A stretch of 64,000 nt of DNA from Salinibacterium sp. PAMC 21357 (GTDB lineage: Bacteria > Actinomycetota > Actinomycetes > Actinomycetales > Microbacteriaceae), in NCBI RefSeq assembly GCF_000247645.1, contig NZ_AHWA01000004.1, forward strand, positions 1 to 64,000, written 5' to 3'. A program made the position numbers and the translations under genes. Positions within the stretch are counted from its first letter, which is position 1. Every line of letters begins with the position of its first letter. Positions 43,565 to 52,345 of the stretch are shown in pieces. The notes under the pieces are model-generated. The model ran no database searches and was not told the DNA's origin. It saw only the letters and a list, made by a program, of their open reading frames with translations.

Positions 43565-44497
43565 CTAGTAGAGCAGCAGCGTCAGCCGCCGACGAGCCTC
43601 AGTAACGCGAGAGTCTTCGGATCCAGCGATTTCAAAGTACTCGAGCATCCGCGTGCGAATAGCATTCTTGCCTTCGGCATCGGCTGCGGGGAACAACTCA
43701 AGCAGACGGGCGAAAGCATCACCGAGATGTCCGCCAGAAACATCGAGATCGGCAACAGCCAACTGCGCAGCGACGTCGGACGGATCTTGAGCAGCTGCGC
43801 TGCGCACGGACTCCGCAGTCTCATTCTCCAAGCGGGCAAGCAGCGAAACCTGCGCGAGACCGGCAACCGCTTGCTGGTCGCGAGGGTTCTGCGCGATTGC
43901 CAACTCGTACTTTGCGACCGCAGTCGCAAAGTCGCCAGCGGAGATTGCGTCGAAGGCTTCTTGGTGCAGCGGTGGTAGAGGTTCTTCGACCGGCTCGGGA
44001 GCTTCTTCTTCGGATGCTTCGCCAGCCGGAAGCGTACCGGTGACCTCATTTTGTGCCGCCAGCTGCAGCACCTGCTCCAGCACCTCTTTGAGGTCGTTCT
44101 CTGGCATGACACCCGCGAAGAGTTGCACGGGACGACCAGCGATCACCGCGGCAACGGTCGGCACTTGCTGCACCTGGAAGGCCTGCACAAGCTGCGGGTT
44201 GTTGGTTGCGTCAACGGTAACCAACGCAAATTTGCCGGCGTATGCCGCAATCGTGGGTTCAAGCGTGGGCTCAATGCCCTGACCAAAGAACTCTACGATC
44301 ACCGGAACAGTGTTAGAGAGCTCGAGCACTTGCGAGAAGGATGCATCGTTCGCGTTGGTCGCGAAACCACTGGGTTGTTGAGCTTCACCATCAGCGGGTG
44401 GAGCCGGCGTACCGGCAGGGGTGTTGTGCTGACGAACCAATGATGAAAGGTCGACGGCTCCGCGCAAACTGGCGGCGTTCAATGGGGCGTTTGTCAA
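43565..44497 (-). CDS. YbbN/CnoX-like protein, thioredoxin fold without CxxC plus TPR
   Basis: Probable chaperone-like protein of 310 residues. An N-terminal thioredoxin-like domain (about 50-165) has VPVIVEFFGQGIEPTLEPTI where an active thioredoxin has WCxxC: both Cys are absent, so no redox activity. QVQQVPTVAAVIAGRPVQLF carries the cis-Pro. TPR-like helices follow (DAISAGDFATAVAKYELAIA, ARLLELFPAADAEGKN). E. coli CnoX has the same architecture and holds misfolded proteins. It overlaps the membrane-protein gene by ATGA and follows it in one operon. Confidence 0.85.
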   Translation of the reverse strand: MTNAPLNAASLRGAVDLSSLVRQHNTPAGTPAPPADGEAQQPSGFATNANDASFSQVLELSNTVPVIVEFFGQGIEPTLEPTIAAYAGKFALVTVDATNNPQLVQAFQVQQVPTVAAVIAGRPVQLFAGVMPENDLKEVLEQVLQLAAQNEVTGTLPAGEASEEEAPEPVEEPLPPLHQEAFDAISAGDFATAVAKYELAIAQNPRDQQAVAGLAQVSLLARLENETAESVRSAAAQDPSDVAAQLAVADLDVSGGHLGDAFARLLELFPAADAEGKNAIRTRMLEYFEIAGSEDSRVTEARRRLTLLLY

Positions 44498-46296
44498 CTT
44501 AACTCCGATGCTGCGACAAGTCCTTGGGTGTATCCGAGCAAGACGATTTTCTCGCCGCTACCTGCGGCCGGGACATAAAAGAGTAACTGATCGCCGTAGG
44601 TGGATTGAATTCCTGTCTCGGTGATTGAGATTCCCGATAGCGCCTTCGTCTGACCGCTAAAGGTCACCGCAGAACCCTCTTCTTTTGGCTTCGCCACCTT
44701 CGTTTCGTAAAGGTGCACGGCCACAATTGCTCCAGCATCGATGGTCGCTAGAGCAATGGGATCAGCCGAGCCGAGCTCGTGACCGTAGGTAAGCGTTGCG
44801 GTGCTCGAAAGCTCCGCCTGCTCCGCCTGCTTCACCGCGAGACCGACGTTTACGCGCAGACTGTCACCCTCGGGATCGAAGTCTAAGTAGGAGTCACTGT
44901 CGACATCTTGTTCGAGAATTTCGGCGTAGTCGAGTGCTACCTCAGTGGGCGATGATCGCAATAGCCCGCTGTCTTTGGCTAGCCGTGACGTTCCCACGCT
45001 TGCCGCGACAACATCCGGGAACACTACCGAGGGCTCGAGGTTCATCGAGTAGCTGACTTTGTAGTTTTCGCGCGGTGACGCCTGCTCGAGGAACAAAGCA
45101 ATTGGCGCGACAGTGGTGTCAGCCTCATCGAGGATGATCGTGAACACGGTACGCGGCCACGACTCAGTTTGTTGCGGCAACGTCAACTGCACTGGCCCGT
45201 CGGGGATAGCGACCGGCGCCGCAATGGCTGCATCTGCAGTACGCATTGTGTAGTTCGCGGCGCGGTATTCAAGAGCGGCTGAAGTAAAGCGTGTCTTGAT
45301 GAGGTCGGCATCGAGCGATTCATCTGCGGCTAACGAGACTGCGCTGATTCGCGCGACAATCTTCTCGATCTGGCGCACGGTGGCGGCTGGCGGCGTCGTT
45401 TCGCTGCCTGCTGAGGTAGAAGTTGGGGTCGGGCTCGGAACACCGGCATCGCCTGAACCACTGAGAGGCGTAGAGACCGTGCATCCGCTCAGCACAAGCG
45501 CGCTGAGGAGAACCGCCGGCACGGCAATGCGCGTCGTGGTGTGCATGCTGCCACTGGTAGAACCTCTCGAAGAACGCTTGGACTGCTTGTAGCGCGGCTT
45601 CTTGGGCACCTTGGGCATTTTCTGTGGCTTGCGGCGAGGCCCACCAGCCCGACGCATGTGATGCACTGCCCACATAAGAAGGATCAAACCGAGCAGAAGC
45701 ACCGCGGCGCCACCCATAATCAAGGGCGTTGCCCACGGAGTGGTGTTGTCGAGCGGCCACGAAAGCGACACAGAGTTGGGCGCTGGCTTCACACCGTCAG
45801 CCGCAAGGATGAACGAGACATCTCTAGGGATCTTGACGGTCAAAGCGAGTTCGAGATCTGCCGTGTAGTTTTCGAGCCAGAGATCGGAATCATAGGGATC
45901 AGGAACTTCTTGTTCACTGCCGACGATTGATTCGGTGACCAGTTCGCCTGAATCGGGATCAACGGTGACCATGTTGTAGCTAGCATCGCCAACCCACGCC
46001 ACAACGTCTGTACTGCGGCCGTATGCTGCGACGATGCGTCCGGGACCAGCGACACTAATGGTCTGGTTGCCCGAATAGGCGTTAAATGCGGCGCCGTCGA
46101 CCACTGTCAGCGGTGCCGTGCTGTCTGTTTCGGCCGACACACTGACCTCGTCAGGCGTCGCAAGAATGGTCTGCTGCGCGATGCCGAAGCCAATCATTAC
46201 GGCCGCGAGCATAAAACTAACTATGGCGAGAACAAATCTCACTATCTCTCCTTTCGCGTTGCCTACAGTGAATTGCGTCACGAAACCCTTCGCCAC
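44494..46296 (-). CDS. Large membrane protein with two extracytoplasmic domains and an internal lipobox
   Basis: Unknown function, 600 residues, GTG start. TM1 is at about 18-40 (RFVLAIVSFMLAAVMIGFGI), an ectodomain at 45-185, TM2 at about 190-212, then a very basic cytoplasmic linker (residues 214-250, RRKPQKMPKVPKKPRYKQSK). At residue 251 a Met begins a second signal-like stretch, MHTTTRIAVPAVLLSALVLS-GC, a perfect lipobox with Cys at 272, followed by a second ~330-residue ectodomain. The frame is unbroken, so either this is a three-pass protein or a separate lipoprotein is made from the internal Met (45546). The YbbN-like gene overlaps the end (ATGA). Confidence 0.8.
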   Translation of the reverse strand: MAKGFVTQFTVGNAKGEIVRFVLAIVSFMLAAVMIGFGIAQQTILATPDEVSVSAETDSTAPLTVVDGAAFNAYSGNQTISVAGPGRIVAAYGRSTDVVAWVGDASYNMVTVDPDSGELVTESIVGSEQEVPDPYDSDLWLENYTADLELALTVKIPRDVSFILAADGVKPAPNSVSLSWPLDNTTPWATPLIMGGAAVLLLGLILLMWAVHHMRRAGGPRRKPQKMPKVPKKPRYKQSKRSSRGSTSGSMHTTTRIAVPAVLLSALVLSGCTVSTPLSGSGDAGVPSPTPTSTSAGSETTPPAATVRQIEKIVARISAVSLAADESLDADLIKTRFTSAALEYRAANYTMRTADAAIAAPVAIPDGPVQLTLPQQTESWPRTVFTIILDEADTTVAPIALFLEQASPRENYKVSYSMNLEPSVVFPDVVAASVGTSRLAKDSGLLRSSPTEVALDYAEILEQDVDSDSYLDFDPEGDSLRVNVGLAVKQAEQAELSSTATLTYGHELGSADPIALATIDAGAIVAVHLYETKVAKPKEEGSAVTFSGQTKALSGISITETGIQSTYGDQLLFYVPAAGSGEKIVLLGYTQGLVAASELS

Positions 46297-46525: not shown

Positions 46526-48868
46526 TTGGCCGCCAACGATACTGATTTCGGCACCGAAATGCGCGGCTACAAGAAAGAGGATGTCGACAAGTTAATTGGC
46601 GAACTTCGTCGCGAACTTGTCGCCGCAAAAGCCGACCGCACCTCGACTACAAAAGAGGTAAAGCGACTCCTTGCCGTTAATGAGGATCTTCAGGCAGAGC
46701 TCGACGAAACTGGCAGCCCCACCTATAGCGGTCTCGGATCGAAGCTCGAGAGCATGCTCCGCGTCGCTGAAGAGCACTCGACGCAGCTGATCAGCCAGGC
46801 AGATATTGACGCCGAGAAGATGCGTAAGGCCGTTCAGGCGGAAACCACAAGCTTGCGCAATGAGACCGCCAGCGAGTCAGAGCGCATCCTGGCTGATGCC
46901 ACTCGTGAAGCAGAGTCCCTGAGTGCAGGATCTCGCGCCGAGGCAGAAAGCCTCATCGCCCGCGCACGCGAAGAAGCTGCGCAGCTCACTACAGACGCTG
47001 CACGCGAAGCCTCCACAATTCGCGGGGCGGTTGCTACCGAAGCCGCGGATGCTCGCACCTCGGCCAAGCGTGAGGCCGCCGCCTTACGTGCCGAGACCGA
47101 GCGCGCAATGGCTGAACTTCGAGCAAGCACGGCCACTGAAGTGGCCGAAGCCCGTGAAGCCGCAGAGTCCCTTGCTCGTGACGCTGAGCTTGGCCGCGCT
47201 ACGTTCGAGTCAGAGAACACCAAGCAGCGTGAAGACCTTGAACGCGATGTCGAGCAGGCTCGCACAGATCTCGCCCGCGAGATAGAAACCGCCCGCGCCG
47301 AACTCGAAGCGGAAACCATCGCTGCGCGAGAAACTCTCGCGAACGACACCAAAGCGGCCAACACCAAGCTCGCCAACGAAACAAATTCAGCGCACGCCAA
47401 GCTCGTAAACGAGACTCAGGCTGCTCAGGCCAAGCAGAAAGCTGAACTGGATGCCGCCTACGCGGCTCTTGAGGCAGAAACTAATGCCACCCGCACTGCA
47501 GCGGAGTCCGAAGCCGCTAGCGTGCGCAGCGAGCTCGAGAAAGACGTCCTCACCGCACGCGCGGCACTGGAGAGCGAACTCACCGAAGCGCGCGAGCAGT
47601 GGGAACACGACGAACGTGAAGGTCGGGCGCAGCTCGAAAGCGACGTCACCTCGACTCGCGCAGCACTCGACGATGAAGTCACGACTACACAGGCTGCCCT
47701 AGAACACGAAGTGACCAGCACCAAGGCGTCGCTCGAACAAGAAGTCACGACCACGCAGACTGCTCTTGAGCAGGAAGTGAAGGTCACCAAGGCGGCGCTT
47801 GAACAAGAAGTCACGACCACGCGATCAAATCTGGCGCAAGAAGTTGCCACCGCGAAAGCAGAACTCGACGACGAGGTCACCACGACCCGCGCCGAACTCG
47901 AAGCATTCGTCAAAACCTCGCGGAGCGAACTGGCTGCAGAGCTGGCCGCGCAAAAGAAGGCACTCGTCCGCGAGGTCACAACTACCAAGAAGGCACTCGC
48001 CAAGGAAGTCAGCTCTACGCAGGCAGCCTTGGAGAGCGATGTCGAAACCACCAGAGCCGGCCTCGAGGAAGAGATCGCTACCGCCCGTGCGCTCTTCGCC
48101 AAAGAGTCGACGACCGCACGGGCTGAGTTCGAAGCCGAGATGGTTGCGCGGCGTAACGAGCTCGAAGCAGAAATCGCCAACGGAACCGCGGGTCTCGAAG
48201 CAGAAATGGCTCGCCGTCACGCCGACCTCGATGCCGAGATTGACAGCAAGCGCACCGCGCTCGAAACCGAAGACAGCGAAACCCGCGCGAAACTTGCCCA
48301 CGATGTGCAGAAACAAACAGCAGACCTCAACCGCGACGTCGCACGCCAGCGTGCGGAACTCGCGAACGAAGTTGAATCGACTCGCGCATCCATCAAGCAT
48401 CAGCTTGAAGAGACCCGCACCACAATCGAACGAGAAGCTGAAACCGCACGCATCGAACTTGAGCAAGAGCTTGCTACTCGTCGCGATGACGCCGAAAAGG
48501 AATTCCTGGCTCAGCACCGAGAAGCCTCAACGCAAACCCAGAACTACCTCGAAGAAGCTCAAGCACAGTTGGGCGAAGCCGTTCGCGAAGCAAATGCCAA
48601 ACGACACGAAGCTGAGGAGCTTGACAACAATTCGCAGGCCGAAGCGAAGTCGATTCTCGCCGACGCATCCGAGCGGGCCGCTGCTGAGATTGCCGATGCC
48701 GAGCAGCGCGCTAAGTCGTTGATGGACGACGCCGAGAAGCGTTCCAACGATCTAATTAGCGATGCAGAAGAGCGCTTGACAAAGATCAAAACGGAGCGTG
48801 AAACGGTTGCCGGTTACTTTGAGAACCTTCGCGGAGTTCTCAACCAAGCCGAGGAAGCTGGCCGGTAA
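46526..48868 (+). CDS. Scy-like giant coiled-coil protein with DivIVA-type N-terminus
   Basis: Cytoskeletal/polarity protein of 780 residues, TTG start with a GAGGAG ribosome site. The N-terminal MRGYKKEDVDKLIGELRREL matches the GY-x4-VD-x-L DivIVA membrane-binding motif. Residues 30-60 are a coiled coil, then Ser/Ala/Glu/Arg-rich helix all the way. Residues 243-660 form about 38 consecutive 11-residue repeats with consensus x-T-x-R-A-x-L-E-x-E-V, not the usual heptads. The end (ADASERAAAEIADAEQRAKS, DAEERLTKIKTERETVAGYF) is again like FilP/Scy tails. In Streptomyces Scy organises the tip growth complex with DivIVA; a like role in polar growth is inference. AI-2E permease follows. Confidence 0.82.
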   Translation: MAANDTDFGTEMRGYKKEDVDKLIGELRRELVAAKADRTSTTKEVKRLLAVNEDLQAELDETGSPTYSGLGSKLESMLRVAEEHSTQLISQADIDAEKMRKAVQAETTSLRNETASESERILADATREAESLSAGSRAEAESLIARAREEAAQLTTDAAREASTIRGAVATEAADARTSAKREAAALRAETERAMAELRASTATEVAEAREAAESLARDAELGRATFESENTKQREDLERDVEQARTDLAREIETARAELEAETIAARETLANDTKAANTKLANETNSAHAKLVNETQAAQAKQKAELDAAYAALEAETNATRTAAESEAASVRSELEKDVLTARAALESELTEAREQWEHDEREGRAQLESDVTSTRAALDDEVTTTQAALEHEVTSTKASLEQEVTTTQTALEQEVKVTKAALEQEVTTTRSNLAQEVATAKAELDDEVTTTRAELEAFVKTSRSELAAELAAQKKALVREVTTTKKALAKEVSSTQAALESDVETTRAGLEEEIATARALFAKESTTARAEFEAEMVARRNELEAEIANGTAGLEAEMARRHADLDAEIDSKRTALETEDSETRAKLAHDVQKQTADLNRDVARQRAELANEVESTRASIKHQLEETRTTIEREAETARIELEQELATRRDDAEKEFLAQHREASTQTQNYLEEAQAQLGEAVREANAKRHEAEELDNNSQAEAKSILADASERAAAEIADAEQRAKSLMDDAEKRSNDLISDAEERLTKIKTERETVAGYFENLRGVLNQAEEAGR
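47252..48505 (+). repeat. 33-bp/11-residue tandem repeats inside the coiled-coil gene
   Basis: Residues 243-660 divide without gaps into 38 blocks of eleven (for example TTTQAALEHEV, TSTKASLEQEV, TTTQTALEQEV, KVTKAALEQEV, TTTRSNLAQEV). The DNA is partly identical as well: a 22-base segment starting with GAACAAGAAGTCACGACC occurs at 47735 and 47801, 66 bases (two units) apart, showing growth by duplication. Confidence 0.85.
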
Positions 48869-48938: not shown

Positions 48939-50000
48939 ATGAAGATTCTCAACCCTTTCCGCCTCGGTTTGCTCGGCGGCCTTGGCGTACTCGTTGCGGT
49001 CGGAATCGGCCAGACAATCATCTCCTTGGCGACGATTCTCACCTATGTTGGTGCGGCCCTCTTCTTAGCGCTCGGCCTCGACCCTTTGGTGACGTGGTTA
49101 GAGACGAAAAAGTTTCCTCGATGGACAGCGATCCTCACCGTGCTCGCAGGCGTGCTCGGAGTGTTTGCTGGGCTAGTTTTCGCGATCGTTCCCGTCATCG
49201 CTGAACAAGTGCGCAACGCATCCCGAGCGATTCCACGCCTAGTAACGGCGTTCTTTGATGGAACGATCAAAGAAAATATCGAGACTGCCTTTCCGTGGCT
49301 CAACGTTGAAGACTTACTCGATGGTTTTACTACCTGGGCTACCGAACTCGACTTCACTACGATTGGCGGCGGCGTCTTTGCCGTTGGCATTGGAATCGCG
49401 ACCGGTATTACCGGCGCAATCATCGTGCTTATTCTGACGATCTACTTCGTGTCGTCAATCAACAACATCAAGTCAGGGATCTATCAACTGGTCCCGGCGA
49501 CCAAAAGAGCCAAGTTCATCGACCTTGCTGAACAAGTCAGCACTGCGGTCGGCCGCTACGTAATTGGCCAGGGCTCCCTTGCCCTCGTCAATGGTGTGCT
49601 GTCATTCATCGTGCTCACGTGGATCTTCCCGGCGTTCGATCTGCCAGTGAAATATTCAGCGCTCCTAGCGTTCATAGCCTTCCTGGGCTCACTCATCCCT
49701 CTCGTGGGAACGCTTAGCGGTTCAGTAGTGATCGCCCTGCTGGTGCTGCTCTTTAACGGTCCACCGAGTGTCATAGCCGTCGGGATCTACTACCTGATCT
49801 ACATGCAGGTAGAGGCGTACCTGCTTAATCCCCGCATCATGAGCAAGGCCGTAAAACTGCCGGGCGCTCTTGTCGTCATCGCCGCCCTCGCAGGCGGAAC
49901 GCTGTTGGGAATCTTGGGCGCCCTCATTGCGATCCCGGTTGCCGCAGCAATCTTGCTCGTTGTGCAACAGGTAGTCGTTCCTCGCCAAGCAGAACTTTAG
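48939..50000 (+). CDS. AI-2E family transporter (PerM/TqsA-like)
   Basis: Polytopic membrane protein of 353 residues. Family features: LFLALGLDPLVTWLETKKFP, IVPVIAEQVRNASRAIPRLV, the middle soluble loop, VGRYVIGQGSLALVNGVLSF, LIPLVGTLSGSVVIALLVLL, and YLLNPRIMSKAVKLPGALVV near the end. The family exports autoinducer-2 in some species or acts in Na+/H+ antiport in others, so no substrate is claimed. It lies 70 bases behind the coiled-coil gene. Confidence 0.88.
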   Translation: MKILNPFRLGLLGGLGVLVAVGIGQTIISLATILTYVGAALFLALGLDPLVTWLETKKFPRWTAILTVLAGVLGVFAGLVFAIVPVIAEQVRNASRAIPRLVTAFFDGTIKENIETAFPWLNVEDLLDGFTTWATELDFTTIGGGVFAVGIGIATGITGAIIVLILTIYFVSSINNIKSGIYQLVPATKRAKFIDLAEQVSTAVGRYVIGQGSLALVNGVLSFIVLTWIFPAFDLPVKYSALLAFIAFLGSLIPLVGTLSGSVVIALLVLLFNGPPSVIAVGIYYLIYMQVEAYLLNPRIMSKAVKLPGALVVIAALAGGTLLGILGALIAIPVAAAILLVVQQVVVPRQAEL

Positions 50001-51793: not shown

Positions 51794-52345
51794 CTAGCGA
51801 ACCGCGAGCATCACGTCAATCACGGAGTCGAGCAAATGGTCGACTTGAGACTCACGGTAGCCGCCCTTTGTACTGCGAAATGCGACCGTGCGAACACGTT
51901 CGATCGTGAGCGGAGCGCCGTGCTGAAAGTAGCTGGCAAGTTCTTCAGCGAAAGCATCGACGTCTTTAACTGCGTAACCCGTCGTGAAGGAACTAACGCG
52001 GGAAAACTTCTTGCCCGCATGACGCGCTAGACGGTTCAGAATTTCTTGAGCCTCGGATCGGGCATTCGCGTACCAGGCCGACTCACCGAGCTCGGCGATC
52101 GCCCGGTCGCGCTCGCGCGAAGCGAATGCATCTTCGAGACGTTCCAGAGCGGAATCGACATGCTGTGGCGAATACCCGCCCTTTTGCATAACGAAAGCCA
52201 ACTTGCGGATAGTGCGCGACGAAACCACAGCAGCGTCAGTGCGTTCCGAGGTGTAGGCGCTGCGCGCCTCCTCAAGGAAGTCCTCGACTTGGTCAACGTT
52301 GTAGCCCAACTTTGACTTGCGGGTGCGGGGGAATGTGGTGCTCAC
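51794..52345 (-). CDS. DivIVA-domain repeat protein
   Basis: Cell-division/polar growth protein of 183 residues, GTG start. Four G-Y-x4-(V)-(D/E) motifs: KLGYNVDQVEDFLEEARSAY (residues 12-31), KGGYSPQHVDSALERLEDAF (56-75), TGYAVKDVDAFAEELASYFQ (122-141) and KGGYRESQVDHLLDSVIDVM (161-180). They form two copies of a two-motif module; the DivIVA family usually has one at the N-terminus. The motif binds membrane through its aromatic/basic residue. cdsA is directly downstream on the minus strand of its promoter region. An upstream CAGAAT, six bases, GTG resembles a leaderless promoter. Confidence 0.85.
   Translation of the reverse strand: MSTTFPRTRKSKLGYNVDQVEDFLEEARSAYTSERTDAAVVSSRTIRKLAFVMQKGGYSPQHVDSALERLEDAFASRERDRAIAELGESAWYANARSEAQEILNRLARHAGKKFSRVSSFTTGYAVKDVDAFAEELASYFQHGAPLTIERVRTVAFRSTKGGYRESQVDHLLDSVIDVMLAVR

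Follow-up and report, generated by a model that had tools for sequence, protein, structure and literature searches.

Which family does the long, repetitive protein encoded at 46526..48868 belong to, and what sets the length of its repeat? The gene lies in a window (the whole stretch of DNA analyzed) of 64,000 nucleotides from Salinibacterium sp. PAMC 21357, contig NZ_AHWA01000004.1, positions 1 to 64,000. The initial annotation described its product as a Scy-like protein with about 38 eleven-residue coiled-coil repeats, or hendecads. We find a FilP-type protein with a pure-hendecad rod, a variant of the known FilP family. The main new result is that the rod length of this FilP-type family changes almost only by eleven-residue units, observed together with the periodicity, architecture, orthology and synteny of the protein. 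We consider it probable that the protein is the Salinibacterium-clade ortholog of the FilP family, which is actinobacterial and intermediate-filament-like, and that its rod is locked in register.

Rod periodicity and length

The gene and the parts of its product are as follows.

46526..48868, plus strand: FilP-type hendecad rod protein gene, an open reading frame (ORF) of 780 residues with a TTG start
46565..46588, plus strand: DivIVA-like motif GYKKEDVD, residues 14-21, with M12-R13 just before it
46586..46711, plus strand: short N-terminal coil, residues 21-62
46712..46738, plus strand: neck GSPTYSGLG, residues 63-71, which contains P65, the sole proline of the protein
46757..47218, plus strand: Ala-rich first hendecad array, residues 78-231, conserved in relatives
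47252..48505, plus strand: 38 hendecads, residues 243-660, holding most of the length differences between species
48638..48841, plus strand: conserved C-terminal cap region from alignments, residues 705-772, ending AEERLTKIKTERETVAGYFENLRGVL

Periodicity was calculated by Fourier analysis of the residues LIVMFYW, and 200 composition shuffles, for which every sixth grid period was scanned, served as a control. Over residues 243-660, the peak was at 3.6667 (11/3) with a power of 56.9, compared to 0.2 at 7/2 and 9.1 at 51/14; the maxima of the shuffles averaged 4.7 and the highest was 9.1. This analysis had been proposed as a check of the repeat, with a strict seven-residue period as the opposing outcome. 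Eleven clearly beats seven, and a heptad periodicity is rejected. The count of about 38 hendecads was too low, since the 11/3 signal covers about residues 78-748 (power 62.7 at 11/3 and 66.1 at the peak of 3.6638), over which the phase of the stripe drifts slowly (about 75, then 115, then 170 degrees). Proteins of the FilP/Scy group have a short heptad coil behind the motif and then an extended hendecad rod. The short N-terminal coil of this protein peaks at 3.52 with a power of 5.0, which is within the shuffle range (maximum 7.1).

The type of hendecad shifts near residues 220-240. The Ala-rich array before this point has L at block position 11 and A at positions 4 and 8, and the blocks after it have a V/T/L core, with V/I/L at position 11, A/T at position 3 and L at position 7. 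Among the 38 blocks, position 7 is L in 30 and hydrophobic in 35, position 11 is V in 16 and hydrophobic in 28, and 30 blocks have a small residue (A/S/T/G) at position 3. The remaining preferences are E at position 10 (29/38) and position 8 (21/38), R at position 4 (23/38) and A at position 5 (22/38). The column pattern of the consensus first given for these blocks, x-T-x-R-A-x-L-E-x-E-V, agrees with these counts except for position 2, where T is found in just 14 of the 38.

The start site is common to relatives, several of which use ATG there. The GY-x4-VD motif that had been read at the N-terminus is present and, with the preceding arginine, forms RGYKKEDVD (residues 13-21), the RGYDxxEVD-type motif of the FilP/Scy group. 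R13, G14, Y15, V20 and the neck residue G71 are invariant in an alignment of 23 sequences, and P65 is nearly so. Homologs conserve the head (RGYKKEDVD), the neck (SPTYSGLG..KLE..LR.AEE) and the cap (AEERL.KI..ER.TVAGYFENLRGVL), and the variation sits in the middle. An AlphaFold2 model built from an alignment of 24 sequences has helices at 17-61, 67-543 and 546-779, with a helix break at residues 62-66 in the GSPTY of the neck. Two long antisense ORFs rich in Ser/Ala/Val (47458-48180, minus strand, 240 residues; 46834-47400, minus strand, 188 residues) overlie the hendecad array and are probably by-products of the codons of the repeat rather than genes.

Rod length was measured from a neck residue to a cap residue anchored by profile alignment, with a simpler pattern anchor at the genus level. 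The gene was matched in all 27 genomes of the genus and in 33 of the 40 genera sampled in the taxonomic family. At the genus level 25 of the 27 genomes were measured; G018 was cut by a contig end and G003/L023 was missed by the cap pattern. L023 (rod 641, class 3 modulo 11) is in no pooled count. Of 122 loci in which a neck was recognized, 3 lacked a cap match and 7 lacked an alignable anchor. Of 80 named loci fetched, 74 were measurable, the other 6 lacking a cap in frame or an anchor position. At the order level, 60 loci were fetched, starting from the top of the order match list and taking one from each genome. After duplicate removal, the pooled set holds 106 distinct family-like sequences with a good cap, and 60 sequences with a cap score below 70 were kept apart as the distant set.

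All 25 measured sequences of the genus fell into one class modulo 11, although they have eight distinct lengths, and L023, the 26th, shares that class. Named family loci were in class 3 in 72 of 74 cases, covering 28 distinct lengths, with one in class 10 and one in class 7. The 106 distinct homologs have rods of 259-982 residues, of which 91 are in class 3, 12 in class 10 (+7, one heptad) and one each in classes 6, 7 and 9. When sequences were thinned to at least 0.6 substitutions per site apart, class 3 held 33/43 and class 10 held 7/43. One class modulo 11 contains 32 of the 44 distinct rod lengths (P about 4e-23 if the lengths are independent), and no modulus from 2 to 25 stands out apart from 11 and 22, itself a multiple of 11. 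A FastTree tree of the conserved ends requires at least 67 changes in length, of which 60 are exact multiples of 11. All 767 pairs less than 0.8 substitutions per site apart have rods that are equal or differ by multiples of 11. Single gaps in 146 close pairs were multiples of 11 in 96 of 110 cases, a count in which pairs overlap and are not independent. The tail after the cap provides the control: in the same 106 proteins its length takes 28 different values, and these fall into all 11 classes. In the distant set, whose cap match is weak, class 7 holds 38/60 rods and class 6 holds 12/60, which differ from class 3 by one and two heptads. The distance from motif to neck was 55 in 103 of the 106 family-like sequences and 62 in the other three, as it also is in L023; in the distant set it was 55 in 48, 62 in 4 and another value (54, 56, 61 or 65) in 8.

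Rod length thus evolves mainly in whole hendecads, as expected of a register-locked coiled coil. This comparison of repeat number across relatives, which had been suggested with the first description, gave differences that are mostly multiples of 11, and homologs keep the repeat itself, with 104 of the 106 family-like rods peaking no more than 0.02 from 11/3. The statement that perfect hendecad arrays are rarely this long fails within the family, where rods reach 982 residues. The 11 genomes of the window's own subclade all have a rod of 696; at the mean rate 1.7 changes would be expected, and since P(0)=0.18 is not significant, special length conservation in this subclade is not supported. 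One ortholog (L062) has a hendecad stretch with W/F core positions of the WEADFEKQKAD type, and its length class is unchanged. In the parts of the literature on FilP, Scy and hendecad coiled coils that we consulted, whole-hendecad variation of FilP rods was nowhere stated, although it could be described in the supplements of PMC9858780, in Walshaw 2010 (J. Struct. Biol.) or in other papers.

One orthologous gene in a conserved block, with dozens of lengths that are nearly all whole hendecads, is a natural experiment on coiled-coil rods, and the free tail after the cap serves as its internal control for the length rule. Whole-hendecad variation across related species suggests that helix register is important for the rod, and the quantization of length supports a register-locked, nearly straight rod. 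The graded natural lengths also make it possible to ask whether rod length influences filament spacing or cell stiffness.

Register, ruler or DNA repeat

A DivIVA-like head is joined through a Gly/Pro neck to a helical rod of ~700 residues, almost all of it hendecads, followed by the conserved cap. At 0.15 nm per residue, the rod would be ~105 nm long (roughly 100 nm). In the assembly that we propose, the 11/3 stripe (a=V, d=A/T and h=L in the middle part) is most likely where two parallel chains pair, and such a pair would give an almost untwisted rod. Rods may then associate at their ends and along their sides, forming filaments, cortical or polar, that could stiffen the cell near the DivIVA-marked poles. 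Indels in the rod would survive mainly as whole hendecads (11), and rarely at heptad or stutter size (7 or 4), because register of the stripe has to be maintained all the way from head to cap. We infer the dimer, the filament, its location, the link to DivIVA and the mechanical role, together with register as the cause of the length steps. Precedents come from relatives. Three FilP-family proteins, including one from Janibacter, assemble spontaneously into filaments in vitro (PMC2680258), and FilP itself yields rods of 37 nm as well as striated filaments (PMC6599971). FilP proteins have been proposed to be parallel dimers (PMC2680258; PMC6599971), and Streptomyces FilP interacts with DivIVA (PMC4255298).

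Several results weigh against a register-locked rod of the FilP family, which we nevertheless consider probable. Streptomyces-type FilP proteins, open frames of 332-337 residues, have a rod part of 168-169 residues that peaks near 3.60 and not at 11/3. The Pfam DivIVA match (PF05103) has an E of 0.0034 and 17.8 bits, under the gathering cut-off of 28 bits. The confidence of the AlphaFold2 single-chain model is modest (predicted local distance difference test, pLDDT, 74.1; predicted template modeling score, pTM, 0.31), with pLDDT below 50 at residues 1-12, 61-66 and 274-293. Seven of the 67 length changes are not multiples of 11, being 7 or 4 (four changes), 3 (two) or 2 (one) modulo 11, and the last three are not single heptads. 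Among the gaps of close pairs, 14 of 110 are not multiples of 11, yet the total difference of each of these pairs is. The +7 step of the N-terminal coil accounts for all four family-like exceptions, but for only 4 of the 12 distant ones. The 11/3 power exceeds the 51/14 power in 96/106 family-like rods; among the more distant homologs (n=60), 11/3 wins in 21 and 51/14 in 39, so the pure 11/3 rod is a trait of the family and not of all FilP-type proteins. When the seven genera without a match were rechecked with an N-terminal profile, six gave none and one gave a 21-bit match. As 6 of the 40 genera sampled yielded no FilP-type gene, the gene is dispensable in some relatives.

A further reading is that rod length itself is under selection. 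The rod could be a species-specific ruler that spaces a head-anchored surface (DivIVA or the membrane) from a cap-anchored partner or a filament striation, with a whole hendecad number per lineage (~260-980 residues, ~40-150 nm) and a head-cap rotational register fixed because both ends bind partners on a defined rod face. We hold this idea only tentatively and rather doubt it.

The periodicity and the length classes might also be mainly an effect of the DNA, with a 33-bp minisatellite growing and contracting through slippage or recombination and little selection on the protein. This we think improbable. The 22-base identical segment that had been noted 66 bases apart exists:

47735..47756, plus strand: 22-bp direct repeat, copy 1
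47801..47822, plus strand: 22-bp direct repeat, copy 2, 66 bp downstream

Tandem Repeats Finder reports a 66-bp period at 47675-47822 with 84% matches, and length changes in the family are mostly multiples of 33 bp. Best-matching blocks within the tested genes lie at multiples of 33 nt for 73-99% of positions. Identity between hendecads at the protein level falls from 0.34 at lag 11 to 0.31 at 22, 0.28 at 33 and 0.22-0.24 at 44-99, as tandem duplication leaves it, and this suggests an old duplication. Against a DNA effect, synonymous-codon agreement between hendecads, compared to codon usage, is at chance level for 11 of 12 lags, and lag 1 equals lag 10 (0.42 each). The exception is lag 2 (66 bp), nominal at an uncorrected P of 0.018, which fits the 66-bp tandem signal and the 22-bp identity. 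Because of this near-chance agreement, the 22-bp repeat is weak evidence for 33-bp expansion; that part of the original argument did not hold, and expansion by this unit is favored instead by the length classes of homologs. The blocks inserted in close pairs (six) are not unusually similar to other blocks, since 10-87% of background windows reach their identity. The +7 rod class (12/106) and the +7 step of the N-terminal coil (4/4) also follow coiled-coil register and not the 33-bp unit. Recent DNA expansion as the sole cause is unsupported by codon agreement and inserted-block similarity. We therefore conclude that the array is old and that selection on coiled-coil register best explains why odd-sized rod indels are scarce, recombination being a likely supplier of units. 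The two causes can act jointly, recombination supplying units and selection removing the rest.

Relationship to FilP, Scy and DivIVA

The rod protein resembles FilP (S. coelicolor FilP and Janibacter JNB03975) in being actinobacterial and in having an RGYxxxxVD head after about a dozen residues, a short coil, a proline neck (YAGLG/YSGLG) and a coiled-coil rod (PMC2680258, PMC9858780). It differs from the Streptomyces type in its length (780 compared to 332-337 residues), its almost pure 11/3 rod, its hendecad length steps and its own C-terminal cap. Within the DivIVA-like superfamily, FilP is widespread in actinobacteria, including micrococcales, and FilP/Scy group lengths range from <200 to >1000 residues (PMC9858780). 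A sequence search of the PDB with the rod protein found no relatives at E<=0.01.

The rod protein is like DivIVA/Wag31 in its N-terminal motif and in a weak C-terminal similarity: residues 657-759 match DivIVA_Wag31 with an E of 5.9e-5 and 23.1 bits (cut-off 260). As a point of difference, the genome has a separate, canonical DivIVA of 277 residues on another contig (contig 5), downstream of an ORF that appears SepF-like by its sequence. These two genes, rod and DivIVA, were the only matches of the FilP-type profile in the genome, and the rod gene is the sole FilP-type gene found there, unlike the Streptomyces FilP setting.

Eleven-residue periodicity is common to lipid-binding helices and coiled coils, and the rod could be an amphipathic 11/3 helix lying on a membrane or lipid, like those of apolipoproteins, synucleins or perilipins. 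The best Pfam match, Apolipoprotein (E 7.4e-20), points the same way. Although the rod protein shares its helical periodicity with apolipoprotein A/E repeats (PF01442), it scores 71.9 bits, under the gathering cut-off of 90. The stripe is narrow, with 17.7% bulky hydrophobics over residues 243-660 and a net charge of -38, and core position 3 is small in 30/38 blocks. A surface helix should also need no exact register from head to cap, yet the lengths are quantized. A lipid-binding helix is disfavored by the score and the narrow stripe, and we consider it quite improbable. Membrane contact of the head is a separate matter. The position equivalent to F17 of B. subtilis DivIVA is hydrophobic in 105/106 sequences, and the next one is R in 106/106. 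F17 and R18 are the residues of membrane contact in that protein, so contact by the head of the rod protein is possible. Of the membrane-targeted straight rod first suggested, the DivIVA-type head and the hendecad rod stand, and membrane targeting is possible.

It is very unlikely that the protein is a true Scy ortholog, a polarity organizer acting in a non-filamentous relative as Scy does in Streptomyces. A DivIVA-superfamily head (PMC9858780) and a very long non-heptad coiled coil are shared with Scy, and family lengths reach 982 residues. Reports also describe a few Scy orthologs in actinobacteria other than Streptomyces, nearly all beside filP, with FilP orthologs widespread in simple actinobacteria (PMC4255298). 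However, the Scy repeat has 51 residues forming 14 turns (PMC3718342), and this period is missing from the rod protein, whose power is 53.3 at 11/3 and 0.8 at 51/14. In five genomes of one genus, which we take to be Streptomyces from the FilP sequence and the gene pair, putative Scy frames of 1271-1611 residues, each adjoining a FilP gene, peak at 3.641-3.642 (51/14), with a power of 38-49 at 51/14 and 0.1-2.1 at 11/3. One number separates Microbacteriaceae FilP-type rods (11/3) from Scy (51/14). Scy begins right before RGYD without an N-terminal helix, whereas 12 residues precede RGY in the rod protein and 13 in Streptomyces-type FilP. In PMC9858780, Scy is reported from Streptomycetales only. 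No second FilP-type gene adjoins the rod gene, whose neighbors are a lipoprotein-type gene and an AI-2E gene and not filP. Scy membership, and with it the label Scy-like, is rejected on periodicity and gene context. An LEA-type protection protein is also rejected, as no LEA family appears among the Pfam matches up to E 1.

Gene neighborhood and distribution

The named genomes closest to this one are those of the marine genus Salinibacterium and of other Microbacteriaceae, all actinobacteria. The head and neck profile (E<=0.001) matched 96/119 genomes of the order and 109/148 of the class, counts that include weak DivIVA-type matches. All 57 named loci with full flanks keep the order YbbN-lipoprotein-rod-AI-2E, and the rod genes are therefore orthologs. 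The other members of the block in the window are listed here.

43565..44497, minus strand: YbbN-like thioredoxin/TPR gene, upstream (Pfam thioredoxin and TPR_20), in 57/57 full-flank loci
44494-46296, minus strand: lipoprotein-type ORF of 600 residues, with a match adjoining the rod gene in 57/57 loci
48939..50000, plus strand: AI-2E family transporter gene, downstream (Pfam E 1.7e-50), adjoining the rod gene in 57/57 full-flank loci

The lipoprotein-type ORF resembles a membrane protein fused in frame to a lipoprotein, with an internal signal peptide and lipobox (MHTTTRIAVPAVLLSALVLSGC). Only its second half matches the SCO2278 lipoprotein family, under the cut-off, and the ORF is possibly two genes or has an internal start.

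Two short FilP-type genes replace one long gene in four of the eight genomes of the taxonomic family that are smaller than 2 Mb (L079+L080, L086+L087, L078+L091 and L092, which has two genes). A 2.4-Mb genome (L071, L090) also has two FilP-type genes. At the Homoserinibacter gongjuensis locus (L218), the frame ends early inside the rod though the contig continues, which may be a frameshift, a sequencing error or a pseudogene.

A PolyDIV gene (51794-52345, minus strand, 183 residues) lies some 3 kb downstream from the rod gene. Its product has four GYxxxxVD-like motifs and matches TIGR03543 with an E of 3.1e-58, above the cut-off. The gene sits near genes that appear cdsA-, frr- and pyrH-like by sequence, in accord with the PolyDIV position near UMP kinase given in PMC9858780, and a PolyDIV match lies inside the flanks of 39 of the 57 full-flank loci.

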